NCBI GenBank assembly: GCA_009838735.1
Contig: VXQZ01000053.1
Span: 35,691-80,837 of the forward strand
Reading direction: 5' to 3'
DNA: 45,147 nt
Origin: Chloroflexota bacterium
GTDB taxonomy: Bacteria > Chloroflexota > Dehalococcoidia > Bin125
Below, piece by piece: positions 8,687-14,309 of the stretch. Every line of letters begins with the position of its first letter. The first letter of the stretch is position 1. Under the pieces are notes generated by a model. It saw only the letters and a list, made by a program, of their open reading frames with translations. It was not told the origin of the DNA and did no database searches. The position numbers and the translations under genes are program-made.

Positions 8687-10861
8687 TCAGGGATTCTTGG
8701 GTAGTCGGGCGGCGAGGAACTCGGCGTAATGGAGCGTCTCGTGGTGGGTGCCGCTCGCGTTCGCGCCGGCTCGGAGATGAATGACACAGCCGGGATTGTT
8801 GGTGATCAGCGTGTCGCATCCAGATTCGGCCACGCAAGCCAGCTTGCGCTCAAGGATGCCCTCGCCAACCTCAGGCGCGGCGAGCGACGTCAGCCCACCG
8901 AATCCGCAACAGACCTCCGGTTCCTCAAGCAGTTTCGCAGTCTCACCCGTCAGGCGTTCCACGAGCTGATCGATCCGAGCGCCAGCATCATTGCGATTCG
9001 ACGCCTGGCAGAATCGATGCGCAGTCCAGGATTTACTGCTGCCCTTGCTGAGGCAACCGTCGGGAAGTCGTCCGGGACCGTCGAGCCACTCGGCCAGGTC
9101 GTGGATGCGCTCGCTGACGGCGGCGGCTCGATCTCTCCATTCGGGATCGTGATCGAACAGGCGCGGCCAGTGATCCTGCATTGAAATCACGCAACTCGGC
9201 GCCGTCGTGACTATCTGACGCTCGCTGCCTTCCAGCGCTTCAATCGTGTGTTTCGCCATCCGCCGGGCGGTCTCCCAGTCGCCGGCGTCGAACGCGGGTA
9301 GACCGCAGCAGTGCTGCGATTGGGGCACGTTGACGGATGATCCGCCGGCCTCGATCAGCCGGGCGGCGGAATCCACGGCGGTCGGCAGCAGCCGGTCGGC
9401 GAGACATTGGGCAAACAGGTCGACGGTCTGGCCTGCGGATGAAGACTCCCACAGGTGGGACAGCGGTCGACGGCTCCTGATGAGCGTCTGTCCGCTACGC
9501 AGTGGCATAGCAGGCACCGATCGCCAACCAAGGCGTCTTGGCAGCGGCAGGCGGAGGTGGTCGCGCTGGACGAGGCCGATCAGCCTCGCCAGCCCCGACC
9601 CGGCTGCGGCGAGGCCCATCAGGTGGTGGAAGAGGCGCGGCCTGGCCCACAGACGCAGCGCAATCCGTTCCCAAAGCGGGGCATGTCCCCCTTCATGGGC
9701 ACGGTGGCGCACTTCGAGGATCTGCTGCGGCAACGGAATGTCGACTGGACAGACGGTCTGGCAAGCGCCGCAGGAAACACACAAACCCTGAGGCCCGGCT
9801 GCCTCCTCGACGCCGTGGTGGAAGGTGGTGTTCACCAGTCCAATGGCGCCGGTATAGATGTGGCCGAACGTGTGCCCACCGACAATCTGGTAGGGCGGGC
9901 AGACGTTGGCGCATGCGCCGCAGCGAATGCAGCGCAATGCGTCGCCGATGGTGTTGGTCTCCCGCATGGCGCGGCGGCCGTTGTCGAGCAGGATGATGTG
10001 CATCTCCTTGCCCGGTTGGGCGCCGGTGATGCAGGTGGTGTAGGTGCTCAGCGTCTGCGCGGTGGCCGAGCGAGGCAGTAATTGGAGCTGCCGCTCGGCG
10101 TCGGCCCATGAGGGAATCAGTTTCTCGATCCCGGCAGTGACGAAGTGAACATCGGGCAGCGATGTCGCCAGGCGCATGTTGCCCTCGTTGGTGACAACCA
10201 TGATGCTGCCGGTCTCGGCGACGAGGGCGTTGGCTCCCGTCAGTCCCGCGCCGGCCGAGAGGTAATGGCGGCGTAAGCCGTCACGGGCGCTCGCGACCAT
10301 CGCCGGGATGTCGTCCGGATCGAACTCACGGCCTAATTCCTCGCCCAGGATCTCAGCGACGTATTGCCGTTTCTGGTGGATCGCCGGCATGACCAGGTGA
10401 GAGGGTCGCTCTTCCGCAAGCTGCAGCAGCCATTCGCCGAGGTCGGTTTCAATCGCCGTGATCCCTCGTTGCTCCAGTTCGTGGTTGAGTTCTATCTCCT
10501 CGGAGACCATCGACTTGCTCTTGACGACGAGGTCGATGCCGCGCGACTTGCAGACGGCGGCGATGTAGTTGACCGCTTCTGCGGCTGTCGACAGCTCAAC
10601 GACGGTCGCGCCGGCGGCCTCGGCGTTGGCGCGAAACTCGGCGATGTAGTCGTCGAGTCGTTCAAGCGTCGAGTCCTTGACCGCGGCAAAGTCACGCCGC
10701 AACTCGTCGAACGATTGCTCAGTGCGCTGCTCCAGCCGCTGGACCTGCGCGTCGCGGCTCTCGCGCCAGGAGCGTTGGAAGTCGAGCAGTCGCGGTTTGA
10801 GATCCGGATCGCTCAGCGAGCGTCGGTATCGCGTCTTGAACGGAGCGGTCGACGCGCTCAC
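8687..10861 (-). CDS. LutB-LutA fusion: LUD domain, two 4Fe-4S motifs and CCG domains
   Basis: Protein of 724 aa that joins two subunits of the LutABC lactate oxidation complex. Residues about 60-300 are a LUD (DUF162) domain with AETGSIMVVTNEGN. Two ferredoxin motifs follow at 311-321 (CIRCGACANVCP) and 361-371 (CVSCGACQTVCP). The C-terminal half has two CCG-type motifs at about 518-520 (HCCGLP) and 650-655 (VCCGFGG), which in LutA/GlpC proteins hold a cofactor cluster. The GTG start overlaps the lutC-like stop as GTGA. The complex would oxidise lactate or another 2-hydroxy acid and pass electrons onward. The downstream genes suggest a broader acid-degradation pathway. Confidence 0.9.
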   Translation of the reverse strand: MSASTAPFKTRYRRSLSDPDLKPRLLDFQRSWRESRDAQVQRLEQRTEQSFDELRRDFAAVKDSTLERLDDYIAEFRANAEAAGATVVELSTAAEAVNYIAAVCKSRGIDLVVKSKSMVSEEIELNHELEQRGITAIETDLGEWLLQLAEERPSHLVMPAIHQKRQYVAEILGEELGREFDPDDIPAMVASARDGLRRHYLSAGAGLTGANALVAETGSIMVVTNEGNMRLATSLPDVHFVTAGIEKLIPSWADAERQLQLLPRSATAQTLSTYTTCITGAQPGKEMHIILLDNGRRAMRETNTIGDALRCIRCGACANVCPPYQIVGGHTFGHIYTGAIGLVNTTFHHGVEEAAGPQGLCVSCGACQTVCPVDIPLPQQILEVRHRAHEGGHAPLWERIALRLWARPRLFHHLMGLAAAGSGLARLIGLVQRDHLRLPLPRRLGWRSVPAMPLRSGQTLIRSRRPLSHLWESSSAGQTVDLFAQCLADRLLPTAVDSAARLIEAGGSSVNVPQSQHCCGLPAFDAGDWETARRMAKHTIEALEGSERQIVTTAPSCVISMQDHWPRLFDHDPEWRDRAAAVSERIHDLAEWLDGPGRLPDGCLSKGSSKSWTAHRFCQASNRNDAGARIDQLVERLTGETAKLLEEPEVCCGFGGLTSLAAPEVGEGILERKLACVAESGCDTLITNNPGCVIHLRAGANASGTHHETLHYAEFLAARLPKNP

Positions 10862-11367
10862 CCGAGCACCGCCACGGTCATACGGCTTGGGCCCTGAACG
10901 CCAATCGTGAGCGAGCGTTCGATGTCGGCGGTGCGAGACGGTCCGGTGACGAATGTGGCGTACGCGGCCGCTCGCGGCTGTTGCCCGAGCCAGAGGAACC
11001 CCTCGGCCAGGTCTTCAACGATGTCCTCTGCTGACACCGCAACAATCAGGTGCCTGGTCAGCAGCGAGATCGCCCGGTCTCTCGGAGTTGGCTCGATGAG
11101 TAGTACTGATCCAGTCTCAGCGACTGCCAAGGTAGCGACCGTGACGCCGACTGACCGATCGGCAATCGAACGTAACGGATCTGTATCATCCGGCAGCTCT
11201 CCGCGTTGTAACTGTTCATACGCAGCAGGAGAGACGACAGGCGTTTCGTCGCTGAGCGCGACGGCGTGCTCCCAGACGTCATCCCACGAGCTGCACTGAA
11301 CCAGTTCGCCCTGGGCCGCCTGCAGGCCGTCAGCGAACAGGGCGATCCGGTCGCTGAGCGTGATCAT
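10858..11367 (-). CDS. lutC: LutC-like LUD-domain protein
   Basis: Protein of 169 aa of the LutC/YkgG family. The conserved C-terminal hallmark is clear (FVTGPSRTADIERSLTIGVQG at about 138-158), as is ETGSVLL at about 84-90. Shorter than the more usual 200-240 aa, with a reduced N-terminal region. It is the first gene of the minus-strand cluster and is coupled to the lutB-lutA fusion by a GTGA overlap. Its 5' end faces the acyl-CoA dehydrogenase gene across 86 bp, which must hold both promoters. I see no clear operator there. Confidence 0.85.
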   Translation of the reverse strand: MITLSDRIALFADGLQAAQGELVQCSSWDDVWEHAVALSDETPVVSPAAYEQLQRGELPDDTDPLRSIADRSVGVTVATLAVAETGSVLLIEPTPRDRAISLLTRHLIVAVSAEDIVEDLAEGFLWLGQQPRAAAYATFVTGPSRTADIERSLTIGVQGPSRMTVAVLG

Positions 11368-12686: not shown

Positions 12687-13214
12687 TCAGGCGCCCAGGA
12701 GAATCAACCGGCCCTGTTGGTATGCGTCCATCGCTCTTGCCTGGAGGCCTTCGATGCCTGAGCTGCCGATCGGATGATCGACGAGGGCGTAGCGGAAGTC
12801 GGGCATGCCCAGGGTCTTGGCGATCATCCGGCCGGTTGGGTCGAACGGATGCGTGCAGAGGACGAGGCCGGGTTTGCCGTACTGCTCGAACGTGATCCCG
12901 TCGTGCACACTGCACGTCGAGCAGGAGCCTCAATCGCCAACCGCGGTGATCAGGAAGTCAACGTCGTTCGCAATCCGCTCGAGGACCTGGGGCTCGGCGA
13001 TCCGGCTGGCGTTGAGTTTGCCGGTATCAATGACGACGCTGCAGCTCGATTCTCTCTCGAACATCTCCGCGGTGTAACGCAGCAGCTTGTCGGCGTTGAC
13101 CTTGCCGTTGGAGAACAGGCCGATGCGCAGGCCATCGAGCGCGGTCAGTCTGGGCGCCGCCGAGAAGCCGGTCGGCGTTGGTTCGCCGGTAGGGTCCAGG
13201 AGTTCGAACGACAT
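12687..13214 (-). CDS. UGSC-family selenoprotein, Sec encoded by in-frame TGA at 12930-12932
   Basis: One 175-aa selenoprotein read through a TGA at codon 95. Both halves are in the same frame, and the residues around the TGA read AVGD-U-GSCSTCSVHDG, which is the UGSC motif that defines this family. The N-terminal half contains the family stretch LDGLRIGLFSNGKVNADKLL. The C-terminal half continues without disruption (EQYGKPGLVLCTHPFDPTGR). Cys98 and Cys101 follow the Sec, so a redox centre is likely. Start: ATG at 13214 with GGAG six bases upstream. A hairpin fitting a bacterial SECIS begins eight bases after the TGA. Standard gene calling would give a 94-aa and a 73-aa fragment. The activity of UGSC proteins is unknown to me. 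The upstream gene, 21 bp away, is its probable partner. Confidence 0.88.
12897..12921 (-). promoter_or_regulatory. Candidate bacterial SECIS element of the UGSC selenoprotein
   Basis: Reading the minus strand from just after the TGA (12930-12932), eight bases lead into CTCG, A, CGTGC, loop AGTGT, GCACG, A, CGGG. This gives five pairs closing a five-base loop, one A-A mismatch and four more pairs (one of them T-G). The apical loop starts 18 bases after the TGA and has G as its second base. Both features match the published description of bacterial SECIS elements (loop about 16-37 nt from UGA, G among its first two bases). Confidence 0.7.
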
Positions 13215-13235: not shown

Positions 13236-14309
13236 TCAGCAGTCGAGACAGACGCCAATCGCCTTGGTCTGAAAGAGCGAACCTCGGCCTCGGCTCCATG
13301 ATGGCAGGAACGCCGAATGGCCGCCGGCTTCGCCGCCCGCGACGACGATCAGGATGTCCTCGGGCTGGCGTCCGCGATGGAATCTCACGTCGTCGGTCCG
13401 CGTCGGCCCCCGTCCGTCGATCGCGGGCGCGAGCCCGTCCTGACTACGATCCGACGGCCACTTGCCGGCATCTCGCATATCCGAGCCCATTCGGTATGAG
13501 TGCTCGAACAGATACTCCTGCACATCCCGTTTGCTCATGCCACCGGAGGCGGCGATCTGCGCGTGCTCGGGCGACATCACGACCAGTGACTGGCCGTCCG
13601 TCAGCGCACCCAAGGAACCCATCGCGTCGGCGAAGGTGTCGAGCAAGCGCTCAGGATCGCTGGTGTAGTGATTCTCCACGTTGTAGAAGCCGGATGCGGC
13701 GAAGACGGTCGCGGTCGACACCTCGGACGGGAACCCGAGCGATTCATGCAGCGGCTCCCATGGGCTGTTAAGGATGTTCTCGGCGATGCAGCAGGAATAC
13801 TTGCCAGGCCAGCCGGTCGTCGAGCGATCGGAGATGCCGGGAATCATCTGGAAGATGTTCATGATCACGAGCCGGATCGCGCGGCCGATGGTTGCGTTGG
13901 CTCGGTTGCCGGATCCGAACACGTTGACGCTGGCGTTCATCCCGATTTCATCGCGGATGTCGCCGGAGACAATCACGGCCGGCGCCGAGCCGCCCGTGCT
14001 GGCGGTTGACCCATGGAAGTTGTACTCGTCCTCGTTCAGACCTTCCAACGCCGCGAGGACGGTTGGAAAGTACTGCGGGAGGCAGCCGGCCATCACCGCG
14101 TTTACGGCGGCAGACTGGACATTGCACTCGCGCCCCGTGGCCGGGTGGCGCGCAACGATCTCCTCGGGCGGGCGACCGGCGGCCATGAGGAAGCGTTCGA
14201 CGCGCTCGCGAGCCGGCGGAACAACCGGCAGTCCGTCCGTCCAGCCCTGTTCATAGCAGTAGTCGATGGCGGAGAGTTCGTCGGTGAGGGTGTGGGTCTC
14301 GGTGGTCAT
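13236..14309 (-). CDS. Conserved uncharacterised protein, probable partner of the UGSC selenoprotein
   Basis: Protein of 357 aa with no domain I can name. The start at 14309 (MTTETHTLTDELSAIDYCYE) is preferred because upstream residues are Arg-rich and include a repeat. No clear ribosome binding site precedes it, so it may be leaderless. Visible features: EQGWTDGLPVVPPARERVE near the N-terminus, TGRECNVQSAAVNAVMAGC, a Gly/Ser-rich STASTGGSAPAVIVSGD, paired Cys in KYSCCIAEN, and a terminal VCLDC. No membrane segment. It is followed after 21 bp, in the same frame, by the selenoprotein. Cys content and linkage suggest a redox or thiol-related function shared with it. This is inference. Confidence 0.8.
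   Translation of the reverse strand: MTTETHTLTDELSAIDYCYEQGWTDGLPVVPPARERVERFLMAAGRPPEEIVARHPATGRECNVQSAAVNAVMAGCLPQYFPTVLAALEGLNEDEYNFHGSTASTGGSAPAVIVSGDIRDEIGMNASVNVFGSGNRANATIGRAIRLVIMNIFQMIPGISDRSTTGWPGKYSCCIAENILNSPWEPLHESLGFPSEVSTATVFAASGFYNVENHYTSDPERLLDTFADAMGSLGALTDGQSLVVMSPEHAQIAASGGMSKRDVQEYLFEHSYRMGSDMRDAGKWPSDRSQDGLAPAIDGRGPTRTDDVRFHRGRQPEDILIVVAGGEAGGHSAFLPSWSRGRGSLFQTKAIGVCLDC

Follow-up and report, generated by a model that had tools for sequence, protein, structure and literature searches.

A UGSC-family selenoprotein gene of a Chloroflexota bacterium and its conserved partner gene, with a predicted distant relation to the GrdB/PrdB selenocysteine region

The UGSC selenoproteins (PF24696, NF041046) are a family already known since about 2008, from the GOS selenoproteome (PMC2398784); the accessible part of that ocean survey suggests a thioredoxin-like fold for the family and reports UGSC fused to a conserved domain, 'Unknown_1'. 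In Geodermatophilaceae, the selenocysteine (Sec) of UGSC proteins is encoded by UAG and served by a CUA tRNA-Sec (PMC5330540). Distantly similar in their Sec region, by profile comparison, are the GrdB/PrdB proteins (PF07355, TIGR01917, NF040794) of the glycine, sarcosine, betaine and D-proline reductases, which carry the motif U-G-T in GrdB and U-x-x-C in PrdB-like members. The Grd family employs substrate-specific B proteins for glycine, sarcosine, betaine and proline, with a proposed further version that cleaves fluoroacetate (PMC10838667); owing to this variety of substrates, the type of bond attacked is not predictable from the Sec site alone. Here, we analysed a Chloroflexota window, meaning the whole stretch of 45,147 nucleotides, and compared one of its genes with these systems. 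Its product matches the whole UGSC domain with Sec in U-G-S-C encoded by an in-frame UGA, and belongs to the same family as the UAG-encoded proteins of Geodermatophilaceae, the codon here being UGA and the tRNA-Sec UCA.

The preliminary description had joined two same-frame ORFs separated by a TGA into a single protein of 175 aa, and the translation confirmed both the joining and the coordinates, with the addition of the strand, which is the minus strand and had not been given. With the TGA read as Sec, the gene encodes MSFELLDPTGEP...VGD-U-GSCSTC...LLGA followed by the terminal TGA, and the frame is broken by one TGA only, within VGD-U-GSC (Table 1). Without recoding, ORF calling with table 11 stops at this TGA and gives a 94-aa ORF (12930-13214) and a same-frame remnant, which is the two-fragment appearance anticipated for standard annotation. 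A profile search of the merged protein returned the Pfam UGSC model PF24696 with 153.1 bits (E 1e-44; curated cut-off 25 bits) over residues 4-167. As this match lies on both sides of the TGA, a chance read-through is excluded, and the earlier assignment of the TGA to the U of a UGSC motif, VGD-U-GSCSTC, is borne out. The NCBIfam model NF041046, scored with Cys substituted for Sec, gave 118.1 bits (E 3e-34), slightly under its 125-bit equivalog cut-off, which is a naming threshold and not the definition of the family; this cut-off was reached by one of the four UGSC paralogues of the source genome (153.8). When 129 members were compared for the U/C-G-S-C motif, the window's protein was found to carry it as U95-G-S-C98, and nothing essential distinguishes this copy from the rest of the family. 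Together with the family codons, the Sec machinery and the RNA structure described below, these results show that the gene is a genuine UGSC-family selenoprotein gene needing read-through of one UGA.

Table 1. Positions of the UGSC gene, its recoding elements and the partner gene in the window.
Feature	Position	Strand	Description	Basis
UGSC-family selenoprotein gene	12687..13214	-	175 aa; stop TGA 12687-12689	Translation, PF24696 match, AlphaFold model
In-frame TGA read as selenocysteine 95 of the UGSC motif	12930..12932	-		Translation, family codons, Sec machinery
Putative bacterial SECIS hairpin	12897..12921	-	Stems CUCG/CGGG and CGUGCA/UGCACG; loop GUG 12908-12910	Fold, recodings, orthologue identity
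Partner gene	13236..14309	-	357 aa (MTTETHTLTD...GVCLDC); 21 bp upstream of UGSC gene	Co-occurrence, model pLDDT 88

The codon at the Sec position was compared among 129 non-redundant UGSC genes, and TGA was found in 120, a Cys codon in eight and TAG in one, with Trp never observed. The Cys homologues that the preliminary description had proposed to look for at the TGA are thus present, and a homologue with neither Sec nor Cys, which it had named as a contrary sign, was not encountered among the 129 apart from the single TAG, itself a UAG-Sec codon. The latter gene belongs to Geodermatophilus ruber (L163:7462-7971), in which the TAG is an independent sign that Sec itself is kept. Among the 120 Sec forms, U and the Gly after it were invariant, as was Cys(+3) (120/120), and Cys(+6) was found in 61. 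Both Cys are present in the window's protein, but the conserved part of the suggested multi-thiol site is U and Cys(+3) only, Cys(+6) being an optional element. The UGSC gene and its upstream partner both use TGA as the terminal stop, so TGA is not a Trp sense codon here.

Sec machinery was searched family by family in the source assembly (3.15 Mb, 96.6% complete), and the genes predicted to lie elsewhere in the organism were all found: selA (524 bits), selB (350 bits), selD (353 bits) and a tRNA-Sec (selC) with the anticodon TCA (UCA; 68 bits). The selD gene has its own in-frame TGA of the Sec type (CGGU-GSK). At least ten selenoproteins are predicted in this genome, including Sec-SelD, the window's UGSC protein and three further ones, whose genes contain exactly one TGA each, and five short proteins resembling the C-terminal half of GrdB/PrdB (PF07355) on contigs C10, C17, C19 and C23 (L231-L234), whose genes carry one in-frame TGA each in U-x-x-C. 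The Pfam GRDB model (PF07355) was observed at loci L078-L097 to end just before the Sec codon, evidently from truncated entries, and consequently searches show no internal stop in true selenoprotein genes. The possibility that PF07355 matches are Cys forms was ruled out, since the genes carry a TGA just past the model end.

A hairpin that the preliminary description had placed eight bases past the TGA, with G in its loop, exists as described: an 8-nt spacer is followed by CUCG-A-CGUGCA, the loop GUG and UGCACG-A-CGGG, with C12921-G12897 as the outer pair. In plain dinucleotide shuffles, the stability of the region after the TGA was not unusual (z -0.5 to 0), because the GC-rich coding background hides a signal, and synonymous recoding was used instead. 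Compared with synonymous recodings of the same peptide, the window's gene was more stable (z -1.9), and over 120 genes the 48 nt after the TGA were likewise more stable, with a mean z of -0.91 ± 0.09, versus -0.05 ± 0.10 for a control stretch 60 nt downstream. Furthermore, most apical loops in the family start with G, and the hairpin core of ~20 nt was identical in six aligned orthologues. An Rfam scan of the window gave no match, including none to the generic bacterial SECIS. The excess over synonymous recodings and the invariant core support the proposed folding, and with it a putative SECIS signal 3′ of the UGA. All the checks put forward in the preliminary description thereby turned out in its favour.

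More informative than these elements is the adjoining partner gene, which the preliminary description did not mention. The listed 454-aa ORF has an over-extended start and was replaced by the 357-aa frame. Its product matched no family in Pfam or NCBIfam, and its relatives are annotated as 'hypothetical protein' in plasmid records. In loci picked by UGSC alone, irrespective of the partner, a partner homologue was found within 700 bp of 71 of 77 UGSC genes, all on the same strand. Reciprocally, a scan of GTDB genomes with the partner gave at least 582 matches, from Chloroflexota, Pseudomonadota, Rokubacteria, Actinomycetota, Binatia and others, and UGSC adjoins 72 of the best 80 of these partner-only matches. 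Both gene orders occurred, with a median gap of 82 bp, and in the source genome, where four UGSC genes and six partner genes were counted, every UGSC gene adjoins a partner. A natural partner-UGSC fusion with an in-frame TGA was identified at locus L072 and probably a second real one at L073; the other 'long fusion frames' of 400-630 aa were discarded as out-of-frame extensions in GC-rich DNA. These results demonstrated that the UGSC gene and the upstream 357-aa partner gene are a conserved two-gene module. The near-constant, always same-strand and sometimes fused arrangement suggests that the two products are parts of a single selenium-dependent enzyme, UGSC probably being one half of it. As far as the accessible part of the 2008 survey goes, its 'Unknown_1' is probably the partner domain found here.

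Near-invariant residues of the partner are DGLP, AGC(76), NATIGRA, Cys174, E177 and P183-W184. Among the matches listed in the GTDB scan, its nearest relative was 82% identical and came from Chloroflexi bacterium SB0664_bin_15, a bin that we take to be sponge-derived, and the next closest was from Dehalococcoidia. A comparison with the PDB returned nothing at E<=0.001, and the best structural match (Z 6.3 over ~80 residues of a chorismate mutase-like part) was too weak to read. Several variant arrangements were observed. One annotated gene on a Sporomusa termitida plasmid (L183:7335-8975) comprises a strongly degenerate UGSC-like part, with Met at the Sec position (GDMGTS), and a partner domain, and is possibly a non-selenol derivative. 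Partner homologues with no adjoining UGSC were seen at L158, L166 and L175 (Poribacteria) and at L122 (Bacillota), the poribacterial ones matching only the first ~280 positions of the 347-position profile. On the Paracoccus ferrooxidans plasmid pFER4 (L184:7399-14143), a Sec-type UGSC gene and its partner lie ~3.4 kb from a plasmid-borne selB, which suggests that Sec use and the module can travel together.

The AlphaFold model of the UGSC protein (mean pLDDT 95.5) consists of five beta-alpha units in a doubly wound order, with Sec opening the helix after the third strand, and its structural neighbours, taken from a ranked list in which absence is no exclusion, were Rossmann/flavodoxin-like with Z up to 10.5. 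This predicted order is unlike the thioredoxin-like fold suggested earlier and argues against it. In a profile-profile comparison, UGSC matched the GrdB/PrdB-like Sec region with a probability of 93% (E 2.4e-7) and with the two Sec residues aligned, compared with at most 27% for 34 further families taken from the same neighbourhoods and 2% for the thioredoxin cluster. Weak independent matches to the same stretch were given by TIGR01917 and the sarcosine GrdF. The UGSC protein scored 11 bits with TIGR01917 and did not reach the cut-off of 602, nor was it reported by PF07355 at the threshold of E<=1; a sequence search of the PDB for a GrdB structure found none. Common to UGSC and GrdB/PrdB are a helix after Sec with a conserved Glu and Gly, an HP-G segment, the expansion into paralogues and the presence of thioredoxin genes in some operons. 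UGSC differs as a single 175-aa domain without the N-terminal part of GrdB, the partner has no detected similarity to GrdB, so that the likeness is limited to the Sec half, and no GrdA/C/D-like genes are prominent among the recurrent UGSC neighbours. Judged from these profile alignments, the Sec half of UGSC appears to be a distant relative of the GrdB/PrdB Sec region. The near-constant partner gene, this relation and the non-thioredoxin model are additions to what the accessible parts of the literature on the family were found to contain.

The commonest neighbours of UGSC loci, whose clusters were named by recognition of sequences and annotated relatives and not by per-cluster profile search, are SDR proteins, CoA-transferase III, flavin monooxygenases, ABC and TTT uptake proteins, acyl-CoA dehydrogenases and amidohydrolases. 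The window itself holds LutB/LUD proteins, an amidohydrolase, a thiolase-like protein, an acyl-CoA dehydrogenase, an MFS transporter and a TcuA-like flavoprotein near the module; in genomes related to this one, the LUD/LutB-like iron-sulphur proteins (169 and 724 aa) and the amidohydrolase at 8687-11367 are syntenic with the module. None of the LutB-type scores reached its curated cut-off, and lactate may therefore not be the substrate. Neighbours differ between loci, and no third constant gene was found beside the pair. The gene trxB was present within 4 kb at 6 of 147 loci versus ~0.55 expected, the latter being an estimate from copies per genome, with the order trxB-trxA-partner-UGSC on an Arthrobacter plasmid and UGSC-trxB in Roseovarius. 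In the source genome trxB is not near the module, and for the window's class the trxB-UGSC associations among the matches listed were of about chance number. Two candidates were dropped: a recurrent ~400-aa neighbour family, which proved antisense to the partner gene, and a co-location with phosphosulfolactate synthase on two plasmids, which was not repeated in a sequence search of other loci. Several genomes contain 12-16 or more UGSC copies.

The reading we lean towards, with moderate confidence, is that the module encodes a Sec reductase of two components, which is fed by dithiols and acts on small substrates of catabolism. The selenolate would come from UGSC, modelled as one beta-alpha domain in which a helix behind a central strand begins with Sec95, in a site predicted to be related to that of GrdB/PrdB, and the partner would most likely bind and present the small substrate. 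An electrophilic bond of the partner-bound substrate, such as C-N, C-S, C-halogen or a similar one, would then be attacked or reduced by Sec. The invariant Cys98 would resolve the resulting Sec adduct by forming a selenenyl sulphide, from which a dithiol donor, for example thioredoxin with thioredoxin reductase, would restore the Sec site. Where one genome has several paralogous modules, these would differ in their substrates. The dithiol donor is proposed on the basis of trxB/trxA beside some modules, such as those of Arthrobacter and Roseovarius, and the confinement of the trxB link to a minority of loci counts against it. The catabolic setting is proposed from the commonest neighbours, namely the CoA-transferase III, acyl-CoA dehydrogenase, flavin monooxygenase, SDR, amidohydrolase and uptake genes.

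We consider it unlikely, though worth weighing, that UGSC is instead a thiol/selenol oxidoreductase of a general kind with a thioredoxin-like fold, engaged in peroxidase or disulphide exchange chemistry, with the partner as an electron-transfer or substrate protein. Such a function would suit the UxxC motif, the trxA/trxB genes adjoining some modules and the fold suggested in the accessible part of PMC2398784, but the high-confidence (beta-alpha)5 model lacks the thioredoxin arrangement, which includes an antiparallel beta-hairpin, Rossmann/flavodoxin-like proteins are its best structural matches, the thioredoxin cluster fell far below GrdB/PrdB in the profile comparison, and up to at least 16 paralogues per genome with varied catabolic neighbours fit substrate-specific enzymes better. 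Still less probable is selenol-based binding or detoxification of a metal or metalloid. Sec and Cys98 could chelate a soft metal, as a U-x-x-C site is able to, and other orphan selenoproteins are thought to act in this way (PMC13188914); yet there is one such site only, no metal-resistance family occurs among the recurrent neighbours, and the strict partner and catabolic neighbours would be left unexplained. That no Sec is made at all, the TGA being a real stop of a pseudogene or read as Trp, has a vanishingly small probability, because beyond the two fragments of a standard annotation, the sole point in its favour, it faces a TGA kept at the exact codon in 120 relatives with Cys and never Trp in others, a protein conserved on either side, TGA as the terminal stop of both genes, a complete Sec machinery and a selected RNA structure 3′ of the TGA.

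Gene callers end UGSC-type genes prematurely at the UGA, and the partner stays annotated as a hypothetical protein. It is a tentative but serious possibility that UGSC and its unnamed partner represent a widespread class of two-subunit Sec enzymes, in which a free-standing derivative of the GrdB/PrdB Sec domain is combined with an unrelated substrate-binding protein, and of which many substrate-specific copies in Chloroflexota, Pseudomonadota, Rokubacteria and Actinomycetota, and in haloarchaea as Cys forms, would degrade environmental organic compounds. Cys-type pairs occur in cultivable hosts (Arthrobacter, Natrinema, Halalkalicoccus and Roseovarius), in which the obstacle of selenium expression is gone. 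Collectively, the near-constant partner and a Sec site linked to that of the glycine/proline reductases turn an 'orphan redox protein' into a concrete and testable enzyme hypothesis.
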